IMG/VR virus record: IMGVR_UViG_3300043536_000027
Coordinates: 1 to 45,645 of that record
Direction: 5' to 3' (one strand)
DNA: 45,645 nucleotides
Source: a virus
In this document: positions 3,127-38,980 of the stretch, in pieces
Layout: every line of letters begins with the position of its first letter
Position numbering within the stretch: the first letter of the stretch is position 1
Position numbers and translations under genes: made by a program
The notes under the pieces: generated by a model
Seen by the model: only the letters and a program-made list of their open reading frames with translations
Databases searched by the model: none
What the model was told of the DNA's origin: nothing

Positions 3127-3241
3127 CGGGCAACCGCTCTGGACCAACAACGAGGCTGACGACGAATCGGAAGATGACGGGAGAGTCATCGAGGCCAGCG
3201 ACGAAGTGAACCAGTCCGCAGATGGAGAGGACGACGAATGA
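3113..3241 (+). CDS. Tiny acidic protein (42 aa)
   Basis: Begins MSKPDGQPLWTNN and continues with about 40 percent Asp/Glu, ending DGEDDE. It overlaps the gene before it and shares ATGA with the gene after it, the coupling seen throughout this operon. It is probably disordered. Small acidic phage proteins can mimic DNA, but that is only a possibility here. Confidence 0.55.
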   Translation: MSKPDGQPLWTNNEADDESEDDGRVIEASDEVNQSADGEDDE

Positions 3242-3579
3242 CTGACAACGTGGAACCACTGAATACCGAACCTCCCGAGCAACCCAGTGATGAGCCGGCG
3301 CGGGTTACCGTGAATTATCCGAGCCCTATCTTCCCCGACTTTGACCAGGCCGGGATGCCGTGCCCCACTTGCCACACGAAGGCCCCCCTACCGACCGTGC
3401 GCTGCCCCCTGCCGAATGCCACGCCGGTCAACGGCCAAGTCCCATGCGCACAGGTACACAAATCGTGCTGGGACTTGGTAGCCGTGATGCAACACCATGC
3501 CACGGTAGCGGCAAAGAAGAACGGCCACAAACTGGCGCTTCCCCCTGCCAAACGTCTTATCCTCCCCCCTGGGATGTGA
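3238..3579 (+). CDS. Hypothetical Cys/His-containing protein (113 aa)
   Basis: ATG at 3238 overlaps the previous stop; GGAGAGG lies upstream. A proline-rich N-terminus is followed by CPTCH and later cysteines (VRCPLPNATP, then VPCAQVHKSCWDL), enough for one zinc site. A basic tail ends KRLILPPGM. No named family; zinc binding is inferred from spacing only. Confidence 0.65.
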   Translation: MTDNVEPLNTEPPEQPSDEPARVTVNYPSPIFPDFDQAGMPCPTCHTKAPLPTVRCPLPNATPVNGQVPCAQVHKSCWDLVAVMQHHATVAAKKNGHKLALPPAKRLILPPGM

Positions 3580-3582
3580 CCC

Positions 3583-3783
3583 ATGATGACCGACCATCAA
3601 GTGAAAATGACCAAGCGGGTGGACATCTACCTGACGTGGGACGAGGCCCTGTCAGCCGTGGAACTGCTGGTCAAGTCAGCCAACCCTGAAGATCTTCGGT
3701 GGCGTCACGTCGAACGGCTGGGTGCGGCCTTGACGGGAATCCAGAACAAATACGCATCCAGAGGAGAACCCAATGCTGAATAA
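3583..3783 (+). CDS. Hypothetical protein (66 aa)
   Basis: Starts three bases after the previous stop. Contains an amphipathic segment (YLTWDEALSAVELLVKSA) and a basic C-terminal half. Overlaps the next gene by 11 bases. Not recognised. Confidence 0.6.
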   Translation: MMTDHQVKMTKRVDIYLTWDEALSAVELLVKSANPEDLRWRHVERLGAALTGIQNKYASRGEPNAE

Positions 3784-4192
3784 ACTTTTCACCGCCGCCC
3801 ATACGATGGACCTGGACGAGCGCAAGTCCGTTACCCGATGGGCCGGGGCCGCCGCTGGGATTGCCGTGCTGGTCATCGTAGCCCTGGCCGTGGACGCCGC
3901 CAAGACATCCGTGGGGTCCGACTCCGCGTGGTGGGACGCCGTGCTTCAGGCAAGGCTAGTTCTGGTCCGTCTGGTCCTTGCCGCAGCGATCATTGCCATC
4001 GGCTACTTCACCAGCCTCGTCCTCTATCACGCCTTTGCCAAGACGGCTATCGGGAGAAGCCTCGTCGTGTTCAAGGAGGACGACACGGACGGAGCCAACA
4101 TGCACTCTTTCAAAACGTCAAATGGTGGTTTCATCCAGGCCATGCTCTTTGTTGCCTGCATTGGCGGTCTGCTGATTGGAGTTTTGCGGTGA
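3773..4192 (+). CDS. Three-TM membrane protein, candidate holin
   Basis: A 139-residue protein with strong GAGGAG upstream of the ATG. It has three hydrophobic segments, about residues 24-42 (AGAAAGIAVLVIVALAV), 62-88 (LVLVRLVLAAAIIAIGYF) and 122-138 (AMLFVACIGGLLIGVL), with a charged loop between the second and third. Its last bases overlap the lytic transglycosylase gene (GTGA), and the following gene is spanin-like. Position and topology suggest a holin or other lysis-timing membrane protein. I cannot link it to a known holin family by motif. Confidence 0.7.
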   Translation: MLNKLFTAAHTMDLDERKSVTRWAGAAAGIAVLVIVALAVDAAKTSVGSDSAWWDAVLQARLVLVRLVLAAAIIAIGYFTSLVLYHAFAKTAIGRSLVVFKEDDTDGANMHSFKTSNGGFIQAMLFVACIGGLLIGVLR

Positions 4193-4767
4193 TCCGCTAC
4201 CTGATGTTGTCGGCGCTTTCGGTCGGGGCGGTGCTGCTTGCCGCTCCGGCCAAGCCGGGCCCCGGGGAGATCGTCCCGTGGCAGGGGATCTTCCAGAGGG
4301 TAGCAGGGCCCCGATGGGTAGATCGTGCGGCACAGGTCCAGGCAGAGTCCGGGTTCAACGCCTCTGCCCAGTCCTGGATCATCAATAAGCAGGGAGTCCG
4401 GGTGCCCTGCGCCTACGGGCCGGCCCAGTTCACAATGCCAACGTGGAAGGTATGGGCCAAACCTCCCACGTCCGATCCGCATGACCCGAGTTACGCCATC
4501 CCGGCCCAGCATTCCTATATGTCTTTCCTGGAAGCGAAGTGCGGGGGAGACTTCGATGCGAGCTGCGGCAGTTACAACGCCGGGCTGGGGTCTATTCTGA
4601 AGGCCCAGAGACTCGCCAATAGCCTCGGGTTGCCGGGTGAGCAGGGGTGGCTATATCAAGCGCTTCCGCGTGTCACAGGGCCATCCAATGCCCAGCAAAC
4701 GCAGGGATACGTCAAGCACATCACCCAGAACCGGGCGCACATCCATGCGCTAGGAGGCAGGCCATGA
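4189..4767 (+). CDS. Signal-peptide SLT-type lytic transglycosylase (endolysin)
   Basis: A 192-residue protein starting at GTG 4189, overlapping the previous stop. Residues 1-21 form a signal peptide or signal anchor (YLMLSALSVGAVLLAAPA). The SLT (goose-lysozyme-like) fold is shown by AESGFN with catalytic Glu53, GPAQFTMPTW (about 77-86) and SYNAGLGS (about 128-135). Such enzymes cleave peptidoglycan between MurNAc and GlcNAc with anhydro-sugar formation. The neighbours are a multi-TM protein and a spanin-like protein, making this the lysis enzyme rather than a virion-associated hydrolase. The signal sequence implies export of the enzyme through the host secretion system. Confidence 0.88.
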   Translation: MIRYLMLSALSVGAVLLAAPAKPGPGEIVPWQGIFQRVAGPRWVDRAAQVQAESGFNASAQSWIINKQGVRVPCAYGPAQFTMPTWKVWAKPPTSDPHDPSYAIPAQHSYMSFLEAKCGGDFDASCGSYNAGLGSILKAQRLANSLGLPGEQGWLYQALPRVTGPSNAQQTQGYVKHITQNRAHIHALGGRP

Positions 4768-6913: not shown

Positions 6914-7099
6914 TCAGTCTGGCCAGGGTCGCCAGTGGGTGAATGCTGAGAAGGTGGGGACGGAACGGATGGAGTATCCGGGGCCCAGGGAGAACTGCCG
7001 TGGGTCAGGGATGATCTCTCCGTTTCCTGAAAGGATAGCCAATTGGTAGAGCCCCGCACGTGGAACGTGGGGGCTATCTGCGAATGCGGTCCAGGTCAC
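6914..7099 (-). CDS. Hypothetical protein (61 aa)
   Basis: Starts with GTG overlapping the stop of the giant gene (GTGA), consistent with coupled translation. No domain is recognised; the sequence is rich in Pro, Ser and aromatics. Confidence is modest because the protein is short and the start is GTG. Confidence 0.45.
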   Translation of the reverse strand: MTWTAFADSPHVPRAGLYQLAILSGNGEIIPDPRQFSLGPGYSIRSVPTFSAFTHWRPWPD

Positions 7100-10000
7100 G
7101 GGGCGTCCTTCAGGTTGTCGTATTCGTCTCGCATCTTGTCGAACTCGTCCTTGAGTTTATCCCGTTCAGATACCCGGGTCTGCATCATCGCCTTGCGGAT
7201 TCCCTTGGCGATGGCAGGGAACGCCTTGACCTTCTCCTCGGGCTTCAAGTAGTTCTGGTAGATGTCCACGGCATCCTTGTAAGGCAACTTCCCGATTAGG
7301 GAATAGGTAGCCTCACCGATCCCATTCCCCCGCATCGCTTTGCGAGCGGCCGGGGACAGATCATCAAGGGCGTCCTCATTCACGTCTTCGCCATTATCCA
7401 TGCGTTTTTTGATGTCCCTAGTCTCTGCCTTCTGTTCGGCCAAGTCCTGGCCCTGGGGCAGCTTCACTTTCCCGTATCTGCGGAGAATTTCGTTCTGTCC
7501 TTCAGTCAATAGATGGGAAGACTTGGGCTTTTGGACAAATCCGGACTTTGCAGACTCCGCAACCGCCTGACCCCACGTCCCACCCTCTTTCAATACCTTT
7601 AATCCAGAGGTGGCGGTGATGGGAAGGAACTTGGAAGCCGCATTCTTAGCTTGGCTGTCGATAGTGTCACCGGCATAGTCCTTCCCCGTTCTGAATTCCT
7701 GTGCCTCGTGGTACAAAGGGGAAGCAGCAGAAGACAACTCGTCCGCGAACCCACCACCCTGCCCATGTGCCAGCAGCCCGTTCCAAGACAAATAGTCGTC
7801 GTATGCCTCTTTCACGTAGGAAGGGGTGTTTATTCGGTTGGCATTGGCATCACTGGAATCTCCCATGCGAGGGTAGATGAAGTCCTTGGCCCCGGCCTGG
7901 CCAGGAACGTCCTCCTTCTTCCTCCCATGGTAGAGCCAGTTCACAGTCCCAAGGGCGGTCGCCGTGGAAACCGTGATTGCCGCCTGACCGAGTGCCCACC
8001 CGAGTCGCTGAGTGAACTGGGCATGGGGAGCAAAATCACCTCTGGCCTGGGCCTCTTCAACTTCCTTGGCCAACTGGGCCTCTGTCGGTTTAGTCAAATG
8101 GAGTCCACGGGATATTTCCTTGGCCGTCATGGGTACAGCCTTAGCAAGGTCCACTGCCGCACCGTAGATGGCTCGCTTGGACCCCAACTTCCACCCTACA
8201 GACCGCAGGCCCAGCATCATGATCTGCTTGAATCTGGAGTTCCATGCCAGGTTTTCGTAGGTCAACTGCCCCATGGTGTTCTCAACCTGATCCCAATTAC
8301 GGGCCGCGTTGCGGGCGATGTCTGCCGCCTTGGCGTTGTCCGGGATGTATGGGCGTTCCTGCATATACATCGCATGAAAGATGCCCAACTTGGCAGCCGG
8401 GACGTAGTGCTCCATGATGGGCTTCATCGCAGCCTCGATGGCAGCAAAAGGCACGTCCTTGATCGTTTTGACCCCAAGATATGTCTTCATGGCCGACGAA
8501 ACATCGCGGTCTCGCAGCTTCCCCCAAGACTGGCGCATCTGGTCAATCGTGTTATTCACATACTCGGCAGACTGTTTGGTCCTACCTCCAGCCGCCAAGA
8601 AATACTCACGGAACTTTTCCCCGCCCAGTTCCTCGGGGATTGGTTTGTTGTTGTCCAGCATGTCCCGCAGGGCCGTCCCCTGTCGGTATACCTGGGCCTG
8701 AGCCAGAACCGGGGTCAGGCCAGTCGTGATGTTTTTGATCCCCTTGATGATGTTCCCATGTGCGATGTCCCGGAACCCGATACCAGCCATCGACGCGCCT
8801 ATCTCGTTAGAAATCACCAGGGCATGGAACGGGGACAGGCCAAGCTCCACCTGGTTCATCGTGTTGTTGAGGAACTTGGGCAATTCGTAGAACGGGTTAC
8901 CCTGGAACCCGGGCTGAAGGGCGTTGGTGATGATCCTTGCCACATCGGGATCGGCGTAGAAGTGTGTTCCACCATCCCCCTTGACAGGCTTTTTCTCCGA
9001 ACCGGTTAAGTCCTTCACCGCCTTGTCGGACAGATGGTAGAAGTTGCCCTTTCCCACATAGGCCCGAAGGACACGGGGGTCCAGTTCCACGTAACCGCCT
9101 ACCTTTGGCTTGTCCTCAAAGATAAGGCCCTCGTTCACCGCATCTTGGATGGCATCGTGGGCGAACACAAACTTTAATTTGTTCGCTGCATCAGCCAATA
9201 GGATACGGGCCGGGTTGTTCTCCTGAAACTCCAGTCCCAATTCACGGGCCAAGGCATGAGTCTTTGGGCCACGCCGGGTCATCATGTAACCCAGGTTCCC
9301 GTGCAGGCTTGCCACATGTTCAGAAATTCGTGTCTTTGCCGATTCCGGGTTTTTGTAGGCCATGTGGAGATAGTTCTGGATATAGCCTTCCTCTCCTCCA
9401 CGATTCTTGATCTCGGTCCACAGACCATCCGTGACGATTCCGATAGTTTCGGCGAACTTCCGAAGTTCGGGGTCCTTGATCCGAGCTAATTTATTGGGGT
9501 CCTCAACCGCGTCCGTGACCAAGTCCTGCATCTTTCGGCCAAGAGAGTCCAGACGAGACAGAGCCTTGTGGATTGAGTTTCCGATCTCCGAGATACCCAC
9601 TGCACGGCGGGCCTGATGCTCGCGCATGATGTCGTTCATCCGGAAGGTGTCCTTCGACACGGTGGACGGAGCGACCAACCCACGAATCCTTCTGTTCGCA
9701 TCCTCCAGCATCTTACCCGGGTGCTGGATGAAGTCTGGAGCATCCGCTTCATGCAGGACATTGGCAATCTCGGACGAAGCCTTCTTCCCAAACCCGTCAA
9801 ACTTGCTGTAGATTTTGAGCGCAGTTTCCTTGCTGGAAGACCCCATCTTGCCGATCTTGCCCCGCACGAAGTCTGCGATCTCACCAATGGTCGCATCTGG
9901 CTCAAGACCCAGTTTGGCCATCAACTTTTCGTAAGCCTGCTGGCCACCAAACAGGTCAGCCGTGGTCCGGATCATCTCCCTGCGGGCCTGCTTCTGAGCT

Positions 10001-12675
10001 GCCTTGATTTGCTCCTCTGTCGGGTCAACGTCGCCATTCAGGATGCCGTTGATCCGGTACATTTTGGTTCGGACCATCGGGTCCTTTTCGATAGCCTTGA
10101 CTAGTTCCTTCCGCTTGCTGGTGGTTTCCTGGTCAACCTTTGGCTTTGGCTTGGTGACGTTATCTGGTTCCTTGGCCAGTTCTTCCTTGATTCCTTTTGG
10201 GGCTTCATTGGCCGCGTGGATGGCCCGTTCAATCAGTTTACGAGTCGTTCCAGTGCTGGTTTCTACCTCGTAGACGCCAGGGGCAATCTCTCGCTTGACA
10301 GTCCCAACCTTCGCCTTACCCTGCTCCGTGTAGGCAACCTTCTGGTTGGCCTTGAACTTCCCACCGGGCTCTTTCTCTTCTCCTTCCAACGCTTGGGTCG
10401 CCTCTTTGGCCGGTTTGGGGAGAGCATCCTTAACCCGGGCCAGAACATCTTTGCGCTCGGCATCATCCAACGGGCGGTAGAGTGGTCCCTTGGGCAGTGG
10501 GACCTCGTCCTTGGCCGCCATCTTCGGTGGCTCGATGGTGATGCCTGCCGCCTTGACTTCTTCAGGGGTGATCCCAGTTTCCTTGAACAACCGCTTGGCA
10601 TCCCGACCACTGGCATCACCTTCCGCGATGTTCTTCAGCGCACCGATGGCACGGGCGGTCTGCGAGTCCTTGGCTTCAATCACTTTGACCGGGATGTCCT
10701 TGCCTGCTTCAATGGCCCCTGGGAGGCTGTGGTGTCCATCCACCACGACCAGCTTGCCATCCTCGTCCACCCAACCAAGATAGTCTCCGCTCTTCTTGGC
10801 CAAGGTGGGGTCGGGTTCCTTCGTATCTCGGAACTGGAGGCGGTCAGGGTCCAGGGTCATCTTCTCCGGGGGGACCATGTAGGTACCCCCTCTCTTTTTT
10901 AGGGAATCCAGGTCAATCAGTTCTTTCTCCGCTTGCTCGAAAATCTCAGGATGCGTCTCGCGCAGACGGGCATTCATCGCCTTACCGTCTGGTGTCTGAT
11001 CGGTAGATCCCCGATAGGGACCATAGCGACTGTGGGCCTCCACGTAAAGCTGTTCGGCCACGCCCTGGCGGCGGTTTTTCGGGTCCACCTCTACCTTGCG
11101 GACCTCGAAGCCATCCGGTTTCTTCGTCACCCACAGTTTGCCAATGTCGTTCCCCTTGGCATCCTTGGCAACCATCATCTCGTCGTCCGGTCCCATGAGC
11201 GAACCCTGGCGGACCCCCTTGTAGGAAGTCTGATCAACGATCTTGACCGGCGTCTTCGCTACTTTTTCTTCTTTTTGGGAGGTTTCTTCTTTCCGGGGAG
11301 TTTCTTCCCCTTGCTGGCCTTGTCCCATTCCTTCACGACCTTCGGGGAGATTTCCCCCCTCGCTTCCTTCACGTGGAACAGTCGTTGCTGGGCCTTGCTC
11401 TTGTAGGGCATCTTGCACCTCCTGCTTGGGCGTTTTCGCCGCGTCTACAACCTTGAGTGCATCCTTGACGTTCTCTGCTCCGGTAACGGCTTTCTTCCCT
11501 GTGAATGGGGTATTTGCCTTCTCTGCATAGGCTACAGCCTGCATCCGGGTGAACAGGTCATTGACCAGACTCTTATTCCCCTTGGCGTAGACATCGGCAA
11601 GCTTCGGTGCGATATCGGCATGGGCGTCTTCAGGAGACGCATATTCGCTGGCGATACGCTTCCCGCGCACCGCCAACTTGGCTTCGGGGATGAACCCGGC
11701 CAACTCGTAGCCGAGCATGGTCTTCACTGAATTCAGCAGGGATGAGCCGACTTCCTCTGGCCTCATATCCTTGTCCAGGATGTATTTGTCCACGGCCAGA
11801 TCGGCAGCACCGAAGCCTAGCCCCATCTTGGTCCCATTCGCAACCTTGGCCAATGCCATCTTAACCAGCGAGTCGTAAGCCTTCTCTCCGTTCCCACCGG
11901 AAAGGTGCATGAGTGTTGCCGCCGTAAGGGTGGAGACGCCTCCAGCCGCCAGGGCCTTCCCAAGCGGCTTGTTCTCATCCAAAGCCTGGGCCGTCTTGTC
12001 AATGCCGCCTTCAGCCGCAAAGTAGGGAAGAGCAGCGGGCCCAAGGGCGGTAGCCTTGAGGACACCACTGCCAATATCACCCAACGCGCTGGCTCCCTGT
12101 CCAAGCGGAGTGTCCTTGCTCACCCCCAGTTTGCTCTTGAGGATATCGTCTTCCTGCTGACGCCACTTGCGATTGTAGTTCACTACGTCTTCGCTCATCT
12201 CTTTGAGCGGGACGACCTTCTCAGCGGCAGTGGTTCCAAGCGCAAGGCCCGGGAACGAGTGAGACACCAGCCTCGCAAATTCAGGGTGGTCCTTCGACAC
12301 GCGGGCCATGATCTTCCCAGCGTTTCCCACCGTTTCTGCGGTCCCGTGAATGATCGACTGGGCCGCAGATACGGGGGCCCTGAGCAGATCCCTGGCGTCT
12401 CCCTCTTTGGCATAGGCACTGGCGGGAGGTTTGACTTCGGGTGCGCCAAGGTCAGCACCCTGATTCAGATCAAACGGGGTAGGTTTCTGCTTGGGTTGTG
12501 GCTTCGCCGGCTGGTTCTGCCGCATGATGTCCGGGACGACATGCTGTCCCCCCAGGCTAGGCTGAAACGGGTTACGAGGCTTAGGGGCAGGTGATTCGGC
12601 ATCGTCCACAAACTCAGGAACCCCCTTCGCACGGGGAGGCGCTTCAGCATCGTCTACAAACTGGGGGTTCGCCAT
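7096..12675 (-). CDS. Giant polyvalent-type ejection/internal virion protein (1859 aa)
   Basis: The largest gene, placed third after two smaller ejection-type genes in the same order as T7 gp14-gp15-gp16. The N-terminus has two copies of a PxFVDDAE motif (about residues 4-11 and 20-27), followed by a Pro/Ala-rich stretch. Residues about 490-575 look GNAT-like (VRKVEVDPKNRRQGVAEQLY). Residues about 600-710 look ParB-like (DYLGWVDEDGKLVVVDGHHS, then IPVKVIEAKD). Residues about 770-820 resemble a small beta-barrel (KFKANQKVAYTE, then GVYEVETSTG). The C-terminal about 900 residues are helical, with no fold I can name. Such fusions fit polyvalent proteins delivered with phage DNA. No transglycosylase domain is apparent, unlike T7 gp16. 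Confidence 0.8.
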   Translation of the reverse strand: MANPQFVDDAEAPPRAKGVPEFVDDAESPAPKPRNPFQPSLGGQHVVPDIMRQNQPAKPQPKQKPTPFDLNQGADLGAPEVKPPASAYAKEGDARDLLRAPVSAAQSIIHGTAETVGNAGKIMARVSKDHPEFARLVSHSFPGLALGTTAAEKVVPLKEMSEDVVNYNRKWRQQEDDILKSKLGVSKDTPLGQGASALGDIGSGVLKATALGPAALPYFAAEGGIDKTAQALDENKPLGKALAAGGVSTLTAATLMHLSGGNGEKAYDSLVKMALAKVANGTKMGLGFGAADLAVDKYILDKDMRPEEVGSSLLNSVKTMLGYELAGFIPEAKLAVRGKRIASEYASPEDAHADIAPKLADVYAKGNKSLVNDLFTRMQAVAYAEKANTPFTGKKAVTGAENVKDALKVVDAAKTPKQEVQDALQEQGPATTVPREGSEGGNLPEGREGMGQGQQGEETPRKEETSQKEEKVAKTPVKIVDQTSYKGVRQGSLMGPDDEMMVAKDAKGNDIGKLWVTKKPDGFEVRKVEVDPKNRRQGVAEQLYVEAHSRYGPYRGSTDQTPDGKAMNARLRETHPEIFEQAEKELIDLDSLKKRGGTYMVPPEKMTLDPDRLQFRDTKEPDPTLAKKSGDYLGWVDEDGKLVVVDGHHSLPGAIEAGKDIPVKVIEAKDSQTARAIGALKNIAEGDASGRDAKRLFKETGITPEEVKAAGITIEPPKMAAKDEVPLPKGPLYRPLDDAERKDVLARVKDALPKPAKEATQALEGEEKEPGGKFKANQKVAYTEQGKAKVGTVKREIAPGVYEVETSTGTTRKLIERAIHAANEAPKGIKEELAKEPDNVTKPKPKVDQETTSKRKELVKAIEKDPMVRTKMYRINGILNGDVDPTEEQIKAAQKQARREMIRTTADLFGGQQAYEKLMAKLGLEPDATIGEIADFVRGKIGKMGSSSKETALKIYSKFDGFGKKASSEIANVLHEADAPDFIQHPGKMLEDANRRIRGLVAPSTVSKDTFRMNDIMREHQARRAVGISEIGNSIHKALSRLDSLGRKMQDLVTDAVEDPNKLARIKDPELRKFAETIGIVTDGLWTEIKNRGGEEGYIQNYLHMAYKNPESAKTRISEHVASLHGNLGYMMTRRGPKTHALARELGLEFQENNPARILLADAANKLKFVFAHDAIQDAVNEGLIFEDKPKVGGYVELDPRVLRAYVGKGNFYHLSDKAVKDLTGSEKKPVKGDGGTHFYADPDVARIITNALQPGFQGNPFYELPKFLNNTMNQVELGLSPFHALVISNEIGASMAGIGFRDIAHGNIIKGIKNITTGLTPVLAQAQVYRQGTALRDMLDNNKPIPEELGGEKFREYFLAAGGRTKQSAEYVNNTIDQMRQSWGKLRDRDVSSAMKTYLGVKTIKDVPFAAIEAAMKPIMEHYVPAAKLGIFHAMYMQERPYIPDNAKAADIARNAARNWDQVENTMGQLTYENLAWNSRFKQIMMLGLRSVGWKLGSKRAIYGAAVDLAKAVPMTAKEISRGLHLTKPTEAQLAKEVEEAQARGDFAPHAQFTQRLGWALGQAAITVSTATALGTVNWLYHGRKKEDVPGQAGAKDFIYPRMGDSSDANANRINTPSYVKEAYDDYLSWNGLLAHGQGGGFADELSSAASPLYHEAQEFRTGKDYAGDTIDSQAKNAASKFLPITATSGLKVLKEGGTWGQAVAESAKSGFVQKPKSSHLLTEGQNEILRRYGKVKLPQGQDLAEQKAETRDIKKRMDNGEDVNEDALDDLSPAARKAMRGNGIGEATYSLIGKLPYKDAVDIYQNYLKPEEKVKAFPAIAKGIRKAMMQTRVSERDKLKDEFDKMRDEYDNLKDAP

Positions 12676-20626: not shown

Positions 20627-20630
<4 letters not shown>
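19668..20630 (-). CDS. Tail fibre / receptor-binding candidate (320 aa)
   Basis: The ATG at 20630 is preferred (GAGGAGGGGGCT directly upstream; ATGA overlap with the collagen-like gene). The sequence is beta-rich, with many Ser, Thr, Gly and Asn. The C-terminal part ([35 protein letters not shown]) resembles receptor-binding tips of phage fibres. Its codon use and base composition are more A+T-rich than the neighbours (TTA, AAT and ATA are common), a sign of recent exchange. It probably contacts the host surface. Confidence 0.65.
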
Positions 20631-21598
<968 letters not shown>

Positions 21599-21601
21599 GG
21601 T

Positions 21602-22522
21602 TTAGCCCAGCTCGGTTACCACTATATTCTGAACGCCTACCGACACAGAGGAATTCGCGCTCAGGGTGGCCTGGAGATCGATAGCCCCGCTGGTCAGGGT
21701 GCTGATGGCCGTAGTGCTTGCCGTCTCTGGGGTAGCCCCCGCAAACACAACCCCGGATGCGTTGGAGCCCCAGTAAGACAGGCTCCAGGAGAAGGCACCG
21801 GAAGCCCCAGCGGCGGAACAACTGATGATCAGTTCCACCTTCAGACTGGTCGTCGCACCGGCCGCCAGGGTCGCCCCGGAAGCGAGCGTCCCGAGAGAAA
21901 CCCCGTTGAACAAAGGCTTAAACGTCAAGGTTGCAGCCGAAGTGGTGGGAATAGTCAGCCAGAGTTCCACCTTAACGGACTTCTCCGCCACGAAGAAGTT
22001 GGCCGGCAAGGTCAGAGAACCCAGAGATACGTTCCCGGACAAGACAGAGTAGTAGGTAGTTGCCGTGGTGAACGTCACGATGGTCCCTACCCCAGACCCT
22101 TTGGCGATTACTCCGGTCTCGTAGATCGTAACCGGAGTCCCGCTCGCGCCTTCAGACGAACAAAGAACCTGCTGGGTTGGGTCAACCCACGTATCCCCTC
22201 TCGTTGGGCTTGCATTGGTCGTCGGAGTGAATGTGAGTTTGGTAGCCGCAGACACAGACCCAGTCGCCCCAGTCGCGCCGTTGGTCCCATTGGTCCCATT
22301 AGTACCTGCCGGGCCAGTCGGCCCCACTGGGCCCGTCGCCCCAGTAAGCCCAATAGGCCCTCTCTGGAAATAGGGGAGAGACGCCCAAGCGGTGGCTCCG
22401 TCACCGAGCTTTGCCAGCCCGGTATCGGTTTCGACCCCCCATTCCGCCATTGCCAGAACCGGATTGACCGAAGTCCACAAGGCGGCTGTCCCACGACGCC
22501 ACTGAGTCTGTGTAAATGTCAT
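21602..22522 (-). CDS. Tail fibre protein with WRRGTAALW N-terminus and short collagen stretch (306 aa)
   Basis: ATG after GGAGGCGTGTC. The N-terminus (QWRRGTAALWTSVNPVLAMAEWGVETDTG, then KLGDGATAWASLPY; quoted in parts) is a common phage fibre attachment module. It is followed by [17 protein letters not shown] collagen-like repeats (about residues 55-85) and a beta-rich C-terminal domain (about 95-306). It overlaps the large tail protein by four bases. Likely a fibre or spike subunit. Confidence 0.8.
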   Translation of the reverse strand: MTFTQTQWRRGTAALWTSVNPVLAMAEWGVETDTGLAKLGDGATAWASLPYFQRGPIGLTGATGPVGPTGPAGTNGTNGTNGATGATGSVSAATKLTFTPTTNASPTRGDTWVDPTQQVLCSSEGASGTPVTIYETGVIAKGSGVGTIVTFTTATTYYSVLSGNVSLGSLTLPANFFVAEKSVKVELWLTIPTTSAATLTFKPLFNGVSLGTLASGATLAAGATTSLKVELIISCSAAGASGAFSWSLSYWGSNASGVVFAGATPETASTTAISTLTSGAIDLQATLSANSSVSVGVQNIVVTELG

Positions 22523-37006: not shown

Positions 37007-38980
37007 CTAGAACGGCTTCCCAAACTGATCGGTGATCGGAGGACCGCCACCAGCCTTGTAGGGACGCCAAACCTGTTCCTGAACCGGTTCCTCGAAGTCC
37101 TCGGCTGTCATCCAGGGCGGAAAATCATTCAGAATATGGGCATACTGGGTGATGTCCTTCACCCCGTAGCGCAAAGAGGTGATGATGTCGAATTTCCGGC
37201 TTGGAGTTTCCTCCATCGGCCCATCACCCTTCTTATTCCACTCATAATTCGCGTATTGATCGATCAGTTTTTTTAGATTTTTGCTGATAAATAGGCGATT
37301 TGTCTCCATCCGATGCCAGATTGCGCCCATCCCAGTCAAAAACGAGTTGTCCGCCTTGATAAACTTGCGCTTATCCTCATCAATGTTCTCCCAACCAGAA
37401 CCATGGGCCAGAGTCCAGTATTCCTCAAGGATCTTTTCGCCATCTTTCTGGGCCACCTGGTCAGAAGCGGGGTCGATCATGAACGTCATTGACCGTCCCC
37501 AGCGGTCCAACTCGCCGTAGTGGTAGACCGGAGGCCTGCGGTCCTGCTCGTAGTCCACGTAGCAGTAGACAACATCAGCCATCGGGTCCAGAGCGAGCCC
37601 TACGGCCGCCGTTGGGTGGGTCCAGCCAACGTCCATGCCGCCCAGGAACTTCCACCTCTTGCCGATGGAGATGAGCGCGGGGTCGTAGAGGATGTCTTTG
37701 GTAGGGAACGGGAAGATCAAGCCAGAATTGGACGTTGCATGGCCCTGTGTTCTAGCTGCGAGCATTGCCGGATCGTGCGACCAGCGGCGGATATTGCGGG
37801 CCTTCACCTCTTCCGAGATGTGAGTGATGTCGTCGTAGGTCATGTAAACCAGGAACACGTCCGGGCCTTCTTCCTCCATGGACTTCACGAAGGGGGTCCG
37901 CCCATGCTGGGGGCAGTAGGAGCAGTAGATATACCCGTTGGTCGTAGACATGCGGGCCTGGATCTCGTCCAGTATCTCCAGGGGGCATTCCTCATCTATC
38001 CATGCCCTGTCACCAGTCCATGAGGCCAGGGCCCCCGTCTCCATACCATGCGACTTGAAGGCGATAAGAGAAGTCGTGTCGCTCGGGACATGTTTCACCC
38101 GTACCATATCGATTGCCCCGGACACGGATTTGCGTGTGGGCTTGTCGATGATGTATTTCGAGTTGATCAGGGCCTCGTCACCCGGCTTGTCGGTCCATCC
38201 CGGCTTGTCGATGTTGGGGCCGAACAGTTTCTTCTGGGCCGAGTCACGGGTCAGTTCAGTGGTTTCACCAACCACCCAAGCGTTGATCCCACGTGCCGTG
38301 CGCGGTCCCCGATACCACTCCGGATAGATCCCAGTGGCATCCCAAGCTATGTTAACTGCTGCAGCCAAAGACTTTCCTGAGTTGGAAATCACAATATTGT
38401 TGCAAACAAATGCGTGATCAGGATGGGTGATGTTGATGTCCCAAGTGGGCTCATAGCCGATCTTCCCCTCGTAGGTCAACTCGGACAGTTCAGCATGGCC
38501 TTCCTTGTCCACCCAGACCGGGAGTTGGTGCTTCACGGCCCGCATGACGCGGACCATAGCAATGCGACCGGACGGGTATTGGACGGCTACCTTGTGCTTC
38601 TGGCTGCACTCTAACCACCCCTGGGAATGACGGAACCGGTGCAGGATTCGCCCGGGGTTGGTGAAGATCGCCTTGACCTGGGTAGGGACGAAATTCCCCG
38701 TGGCGAAGTCGAACGCCACCACTTCGTCATTCACCTCGATGCAGTCGATCCGCTTCTCATCGCCGCACCACATGAGAACGGCGGCATCCCCCCGTAGGCA
38801 CTGGTTGGCCCCGGAGATCGCCTTGATGTGGCGATTCGAGTTCCAGAACGCCATCTGGGGTTTATTGGGAGGACGCCGGTCCCAGATAGATATAAACGCC
38901 TCTGCCGCCTCCTGTTCAACCAGAGTGCTGAAGTCACTGAGTCCCTGGACTAGGCCGGCAAGGTCATTGTGTTTCGGCAT
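37007..38980 (-). CDS. terL: Terminase large subunit with in-frame intein (657 aa)
   Basis: The packaging motor ATPase and nuclease. The Walker A motif GANQSGKS is formed only after joining residues 57-60 to 201-204; residues 61-200 are an intein. Walker B is GDRAWIDEE (Asp329, Glu330), and the coupling motif region is TTNGYIYCSY. The RNase H-type nuclease is marked by LGGMDVGWTHP (Asp450) and KFDIITSLRYG (Asp598). The spliced length, 517 aa, is normal for podovirus terminases. It follows TerS and two small genes, including an FmdB-type zinc ribbon. Function depends on splicing, since the insertion breaks the P-loop. Confidence 0.93.
   Translation of the reverse strand: MPKHNDLAGLVQGLSDFSTLVEQEAAEAFISIWDRRPPNKPQMAFWNSNRHIKAISGANQCLRGDAAVLMWCGDEKRIDCIEVNDEVVAFDFATGNFVPTQVKAIFTNPGRILHRFRHSQGWLECSQKHKVAVQYPSGRIAMVRVMRAVKHQLPVWVDKEGHAELSELTYEGKIGYEPTWDINITHPDHAFVCNNIVISNSGKSLAAAVNIAWDATGIYPEWYRGPRTARGINAWVVGETTELTRDSAQKKLFGPNIDKPGWTDKPGDEALINSKYIIDKPTRKSVSGAIDMVRVKHVPSDTTSLIAFKSHGMETGALASWTGDRAWIDEECPLEILDEIQARMSTTNGYIYCSYCPQHGRTPFVKSMEEEGPDVFLVYMTYDDITHISEEVKARNIRRWSHDPAMLAARTQGHATSNSGLIFPFPTKDILYDPALISIGKRWKFLGGMDVGWTHPTAAVGLALDPMADVVYCYVDYEQDRRPPVYHYGELDRWGRSMTFMIDPASDQVAQKDGEKILEEYWTLAHGSGWENIDEDKRKFIKADNSFLTGMGAIWHRMETNRLFISKNLKKLIDQYANYEWNKKGDGPMEETPSRKFDIITSLRYGVKDITQYAHILNDFPPWMTAEDFEEPVQEQVWRPYKAGGGPPITDQFGKPF
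38381..38800 (-). other. Mini-intein inside TerL P-loop (140 aa)
   Basis: Starts at Cys61 (CLRGDAAVLMW, block A) and ends at Asn200, followed by Ser201 as the +1 residue. Block B is GWLECSQKHKVAV with His129. The C-terminal blocks are PTWDINITHPDHAF and NNIVISN. There is no room for a homing endonuclease, so this is a minimal splicing domain. The penultimate residue is Ser199 instead of the usual His, a known but uncommon variation that may slow Asn cyclisation. P-loop insertion is a favoured intein site in ATPases. Confidence 0.92.

Follow-up and report, generated by a model that had tools for sequence, protein, structure and literature searches.

A predicted class-1 mini-intein in the ATP-binding loop of a viral terminase, and further inteins in the same loop of related terminases

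The terminase gene and the place of the insertion

The window, i.e. the whole stretch of 45,645 nucleotides analysed here (IMG/VR record IMGVR_UViG_3300043536_000027), encodes on its minus strand a 657-aa precursor of the terminase large subunit (TerL, 37007–38980). The open reading frame matches Terminase_6N (E = 6.8e-7) and a PHROG terminase large subunit family (E = 3.4e-12). Three parts of the precursor can be distinguished, all on the minus strand: an N-extein (residues 1–60, 38801–38980), an insertion of 140 aa denoted IntA (C61–N200, 38381–38800), and a C-extein (37007–38380) that opens with Ser201 as the +1 residue and holds the remaining ATPase as well as the nuclease. The N-extein ends in GANQ, corresponding to positions 1–4 of the P-loop, and the C-extein starts with SGKSLAAA, the first four residues of which are positions 5–8. 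Between them, IntA runs from CLRGD to IVISN and interrupts the Walker A motif (GxxxxGK[S/T]) after its fourth position (x4|S5). A preliminary description, made from the letters of this DNA, had placed a 140-residue insert between GANQ and SGKS, and its coordinates are borne out by the open reading frame and by alignment to relatives.

All four intein blocks that the description had listed were found on the same strand. Block A contains Cys1 (38798–38800), which is invariant in all intact IntA copies and is the predicted first nucleophile. Block B reads S66-Q-K-H69 (38594–38605), where most relatives have T-x-x-H, and blocks F and G comprise W120-D121...H129...S139-N140 (38381–38443). The reported lack of an endonuclease domain likewise holds, as the 140 aa of IntA show no LAGLIDADG or HNH match. 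The nearby K203|S204 junction (38371–38372) is empty in the window; it is occupied in several relatives (see below).

When IntA was removed in silico, TerL aligned without a gap at the junction to intein-free terminases of phage isolates and IMG/VR records. The P-loop is uninterrupted at the IntA site in L009, L040, L042–L049 and seven phage isolates, and L009, at 55% identity the nearest relative without an intein, carries an undivided GANQSGKT. Comparison with TerL of relatives without the insertion, as the preliminary description had proposed, thus revealed an intact P-loop at the exact junctions, and not the 140 residues retained as an unspliced, conserved domain. Together with the predicted HINT fold (see below), these empty sites uphold the view that a mini-intein splits the Walker A motif, which would be contiguous only after excision. 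Loss of IntA in L009 was considered, since the best tree nests this contig in the IntA clade; the tree that keeps the IntA carriers together was not rejected (AU p = 0.11), and the loss was not adopted. A scan of GTDB genomes for TerL returned no relatives, and therefore no host was inferred.

P-loop ATPases are favourite homes of inteins, and inteins in TerL are known. The mycobacteriophage inteins TerL1-a and TerL1-b lie in the P-loop of TerL, as IntA does, with site a at K7|T8 (PMC5050341); the site in the window (x4|S5) is three residues upstream of a. In the Baka TerL record (L079), site b is one residue beyond a, and the intein there ends in FIPTHN and contains two motifs that resemble LAGLIDADG. 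Site x4|S5 coincides with neither of these published TerL sites and is new. P-loop inteins were also noted within the TerL genes of Acinetobacter phage vB_AbaM_ME3 (L023, KU935715), Oceanotoga phage UFV02 (L056, OR420712) and Methanosarcina virus MetMV (L026, MK170447), the TerL annotation of which does not mention an intein.

Identity and probable splicing of IntA

Searched against Pfam, the single IntA sequence matched Hint (PF01079) at E = 0.009 and Hom_end_hint at E = 0.046; both matches miss the cut-off and are weak when taken alone. The PF14890 profile had no match on the window genome, no NCBIfam model reached its cut-off on IntA, the PDB search with the single sequence found no match, and tblastn against plasmids gave chance-level matches only. 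Alignment to intein and terminase families, another check put forward in the preliminary description, assigned TerL to the terminases, and the intein call was settled by the alignment of relatives and by the fold. An AlphaFold model of IntA built from that alignment reached a mean pLDDT of 93.2. Foldseek returned 64 PDB matches at E ≤ 0.001 for this model, headed by the Ssp DnaB mini-intein (1mi8, TM 0.84, E = 1.6e-8) and including the Npu DnaB mini-intein (TM 0.81). The same element is present in L033, L035 and L036 at 44–53% identity, and the catalytic residues are kept across lineages that are 44–94% identical. Cys1, Asn140 and Ser+1, i.e. the first, last and +1 residues, are invariant among all intact copies that reside in TerL. 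The HINT fold at high confidence, the precise empty sites and the conserved catalytic residues place the intein assignment beyond chance, and on sequence and model IntA is classified as a class-1 mini-intein without endonuclease.

Two other identities were weighed. A bacterial-intein-like (BIL) or Hedgehog-type autoprocessing domain deserves almost no credence, even though the IntA alignment profile matches the Tetrahymena BIL2 domain (E = 0.0013) and the Foldseek list includes BIL and Hedgehog domains. BIL domains are expected outside conserved motifs and without a conserved +1 nucleophile, whereas IntA is inserted in the P-loop with clean empty sites in relatives, ends in Asn and is followed by an invariant +1 Ser; moreover, the top structural match is a true mini-intein. 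Highly improbable, too, is a degenerate HINT domain that no longer splices, with TerL working with the insert in place or as cleaved pieces. That decay can happen is illustrated by a free-standing relative of IntA in contig L072, in which Cys1 is replaced by Met-Ser and the terminal Asn by Glu-Gly-stop, but this sole decayed copy lies outside TerL, and the L072 TerL itself contains another intein with a full catalytic set. The copies in place always retain Cys1, Asn and Ser+1 under strong purifying selection, and the insert breaks a P-loop that every TerL ATPase needs.

For the class-1 mini-intein, it is very probable that IntA undergoes canonical splicing in TerL and is an old, resident element, kept without a shown regulatory role. 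Its anatomy and the behaviour of tested relatives point to class-1 splicing of IntA as most likely, with TerL active as an ATPase only afterwards. After translation, Cys1 would attack the Gln60–Cys1 bond, the N-extein would be passed to Ser+1 by transesterification, and Asn140 would cyclise, upon which the exteins would be ligated as GANQ-SGKS to complete the Walker A motif. Prior to splicing, TerL would not be able to bind ATP normally. Splicing, the assignment of its steps and the reason for retention are what we infer from sequence, fold, empty sites, selection and composition.

Comparison of the window with L001 yields dN/dS values of 0.043 (IntA), 0.046 (C-extein) and 0.080 (N-extein), which are rough as dS is near 1; purifying selection acts on IntA and the C-extein with equal strength. 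The GC3 of IntA (0.76) is close to that of the exteins (0.70) and hence gives no sign of recent arrival. On these sequence measures IntA looks old, resident and functional. Across lineages, intein identity loosely follows extein identity, as would be expected under mainly vertical inheritance and some replacement. A homing endonuclease may have been lost from IntA or may never have been present in the TerL clade. Persistence could be explained by the rarity of exact deletion, as imprecise loss of the element or loss of splicing would kill packaging. Because an intein in a catalytic loop is removable only by exact deletion, no regulatory role is required for its retention.

The penultimate serine

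The usual penultimate His is missing from IntA and Ser139 (codon TCC, 38384–38386, minus strand) is found instead. The preliminary description had pointed to this residue and to the +1 Ser as unusual features. Both are present, but neither is an oddity: three residues are usual at +1 of inteins, Ser among them (PMC7664689), and penultimate Gly, Lys or Ser has already been described for phage class-1 inteins, Ser in those of mycobacteriophages (PMC5050341, Fig. 5B). Those phage inteins without the His reside in other host proteins and at other sites than IntA, and their function was assayed on the Gly variant.

Every intact IntA copy of this TerL clade carries the penultimate Ser (window group, L033, L035, L036/L037, L065–L067, L068/L070 and L071). 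As five codons are used (TCC, TCT, TCG, TCA and AGC), the residue is conserved as an amino acid and not as DNA. His is found in distant mini-inteins that share this P-loop position. One is the 137-aa intein of ME3 TerL (x4|T5), which is 26% identical to IntA over the full length, has the junctions GRR|CIPG...VCHN|TGKT, and differs from IntA in its penultimate His, its +1 Thr and its block-B T-x-x-H, in a distant TerL; the other is found in L076/L077 (GGNR|CLVA...VVHN|TGKT). The simplest reading of these sequences would be a single replacement of His by Ser in the ancestor of the clade, followed by adaptation to Ser. In block B, L068/L070 and the window lineage have Ser in place of Thr, and the other lineages have canonical T-x-x-H.

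The missing His and the block-B Ser cast doubt on the splicing efficiency of IntA. The preliminary description had suggested that slow splicing could time late packaging, and in this proposal the penultimate Ser, with the block-B Ser, would slow or condition splicing and delay TerL activation to late infection. The fixation of Ser in the TerL clade through several codons, indicative of selection, and the His of distant relatives at the same site speak for such a timer. Fixation is equally expected, however, if Ser is the residue to which the active site has adapted. Moreover, TerL is a late gene product in any case. All five TerL inteins that were assayed (b, c, e, f and g) spliced readily, and in a phage class-1 intein whose penultimate residue is Gly, splicing went to completion, whereas its G-to-H mutant was slow (PMC5050341). 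A non-His penultimate residue therefore need not mean slow splicing. We regard the timer as unlikely, and the packaging-timing idea derived from the penultimate Ser has no support.

Other inteins in the same loop

Three contigs with a TerL close to that of the window (L003, L004 and L005) carry a second insertion in the same P-loop, three residues downstream of IntA. This element, IntB, comprises 347 aa and is located at SGK|S (L003:2979–4019, L005:2864–3904 and L004:128–1168). The junctions read ...VVSN|SGK|ALPNN...FIPTHN|SLAAA, with only the end of IntA visible in L004 because that contig begins within it. IntB has Ala at position 1, i.e. no nucleophile, and W66, C327 and T345 form the class-3 WCT set (B:12, F:4, G:5), which is conserved in the TerL inteins of MetMV and Klebsiella phage YC1. 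PDB matches of IntB are mycobacterial DnaB inteins, including 6bs8, titled class 3, and its LAGLIDADG endonuclease domain matches PF14528 (E = 5.6e-11). By these sequence features, two predicted inteins of different class (class 1 and class 3) flank a three-residue extein, SGK. An AlphaFold2 model of the tandem arrangement (N-extein, IntA, SGK, IntB and C-extein) was uninformative, with a pLDDT of 39, and was given no weight.

The low GC3 of IntB (0.44) and its near-identity in the three contigs indicate recent arrival; a search for IntB elsewhere in IMG/VR returned only the same three contigs. The class-3 TerL inteins of MetMV and YC1 are 35% and 34% identical to IntB and occupy the same K7|S/T8 site but, unlike the pair in L003–L005, have no companion intein upstream. 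Within the limits of our literature access, no tandem or three-residue-apart pair of inteins was found. The nearest published parallel is the neighbouring pair in haloarchaeal MCM, one member of which is at Walker A of the ATPase (PMC10643990); it differs in the host protein, and the TerL pair, class 1 plus class 3, is only SGK apart.

The relatives L001, L002 and L006 contain IntA and lack IntB. Their DNA is identical to that of L005 over codons 132–199 and 206–317, whereas in codons 200–205, which have the IntB site at their centre, 11 of 18 nt differ, all synonymously. Random placement of 11 differing codons in codons 41–320 produced zero runs of six in 200,000 trials, in a test that was chosen after the pattern had been seen. 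The Ser201 codon is TCN in the window, in L005 and in the other compared lineages, and AGT is limited to the L001 type, so that much of the change lies with the L001 type. The pattern could stem from a short conversion tract or from selection for a target that resists homing. Tentatively, and with rather less than even confidence, the P-loop of this TerL family may be viewed as a hot spot for multiple inteins, in which the unrelated IntA (resident) and IntB (recent) would both have to leave the precursor of L003–L005 before one Walker A motif is formed, and in which the recoding of IntB-free relatives may resist homing.

At the IntB position, L065–L067 carry a relative of IntA instead, with about 50% identity to that of the window (GANQSGK|CLRY...VVSN|SHTAA; e.g. 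L066:2501–2923 at the K|S site). The L066 TerL is sister to that of L033 (support 98/99), in which the intein occupies the usual site. Simple sliding of the L066 intein by three residues is the less fitting account, as the two inteins (55% identical) have diverged beyond their sister TerLs (78%). The sequences rather suggest that a related intein re-invaded the loop or replaced the earlier one.

In contig L072, on which the following observations rest as a single example, the usual IntA site is occupied by an unrelated class-1 intein of 342 aa (3189–4214, plus strand) with the ending LNHN|SGKS and a stop-free frame. Opposite its linker, on the minus strand, runs a 244-aa HNH/HTH endonuclease ORF (3376–4110; PF13392, E = 1.6e-10). 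When the endonuclease codons were shuffled synonymously, the TerL frame acquired 6.1 stops on average and stayed free of stops in 0.02% of shuffles, which suggests that open frames are maintained on both strands. Among published cases, the HNH of the ShiLan insertion, encoded on the same strand and out of frame, comes closest (PMC11855218). Just upstream of the L072 TerL lies the free-standing IntA-like HINT ORF mentioned above (2495–2926), with the first Cys and terminal Asn lost; it could be either a displaced relic or a domesticated domain.

IntA alone is an ordinary addition to the known inteins, from an uncultivated podovirus-like clade and with a penultimate Ser fixed throughout. Of more use is the TerL clade, in which this loop was invaded more than once and one family offers comparable states of the site: empty, with one intein, with two, with one at a distance of three residues, or with an unrelated one in its place. 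The persistence of endonuclease-free inteins, the order of splicing in neighbours and homing escape by synonymous recoding, so far mostly theory, are now testable.

Elsewhere in the window, a gene at 7096–12675 (minus strand) encodes an 1859-aa protein, probably a large virion protein, with a short match to a PHROG family labelled as portal (E = 3.3e-9) and, below threshold, one to an acetyltransferase. A tail-fibre-like gene pair is located at 20627–22522 (minus strand), with matches to Mtd_N and a collagen repeat in 21602–22522 and to tail fibre families in 20627–21598.
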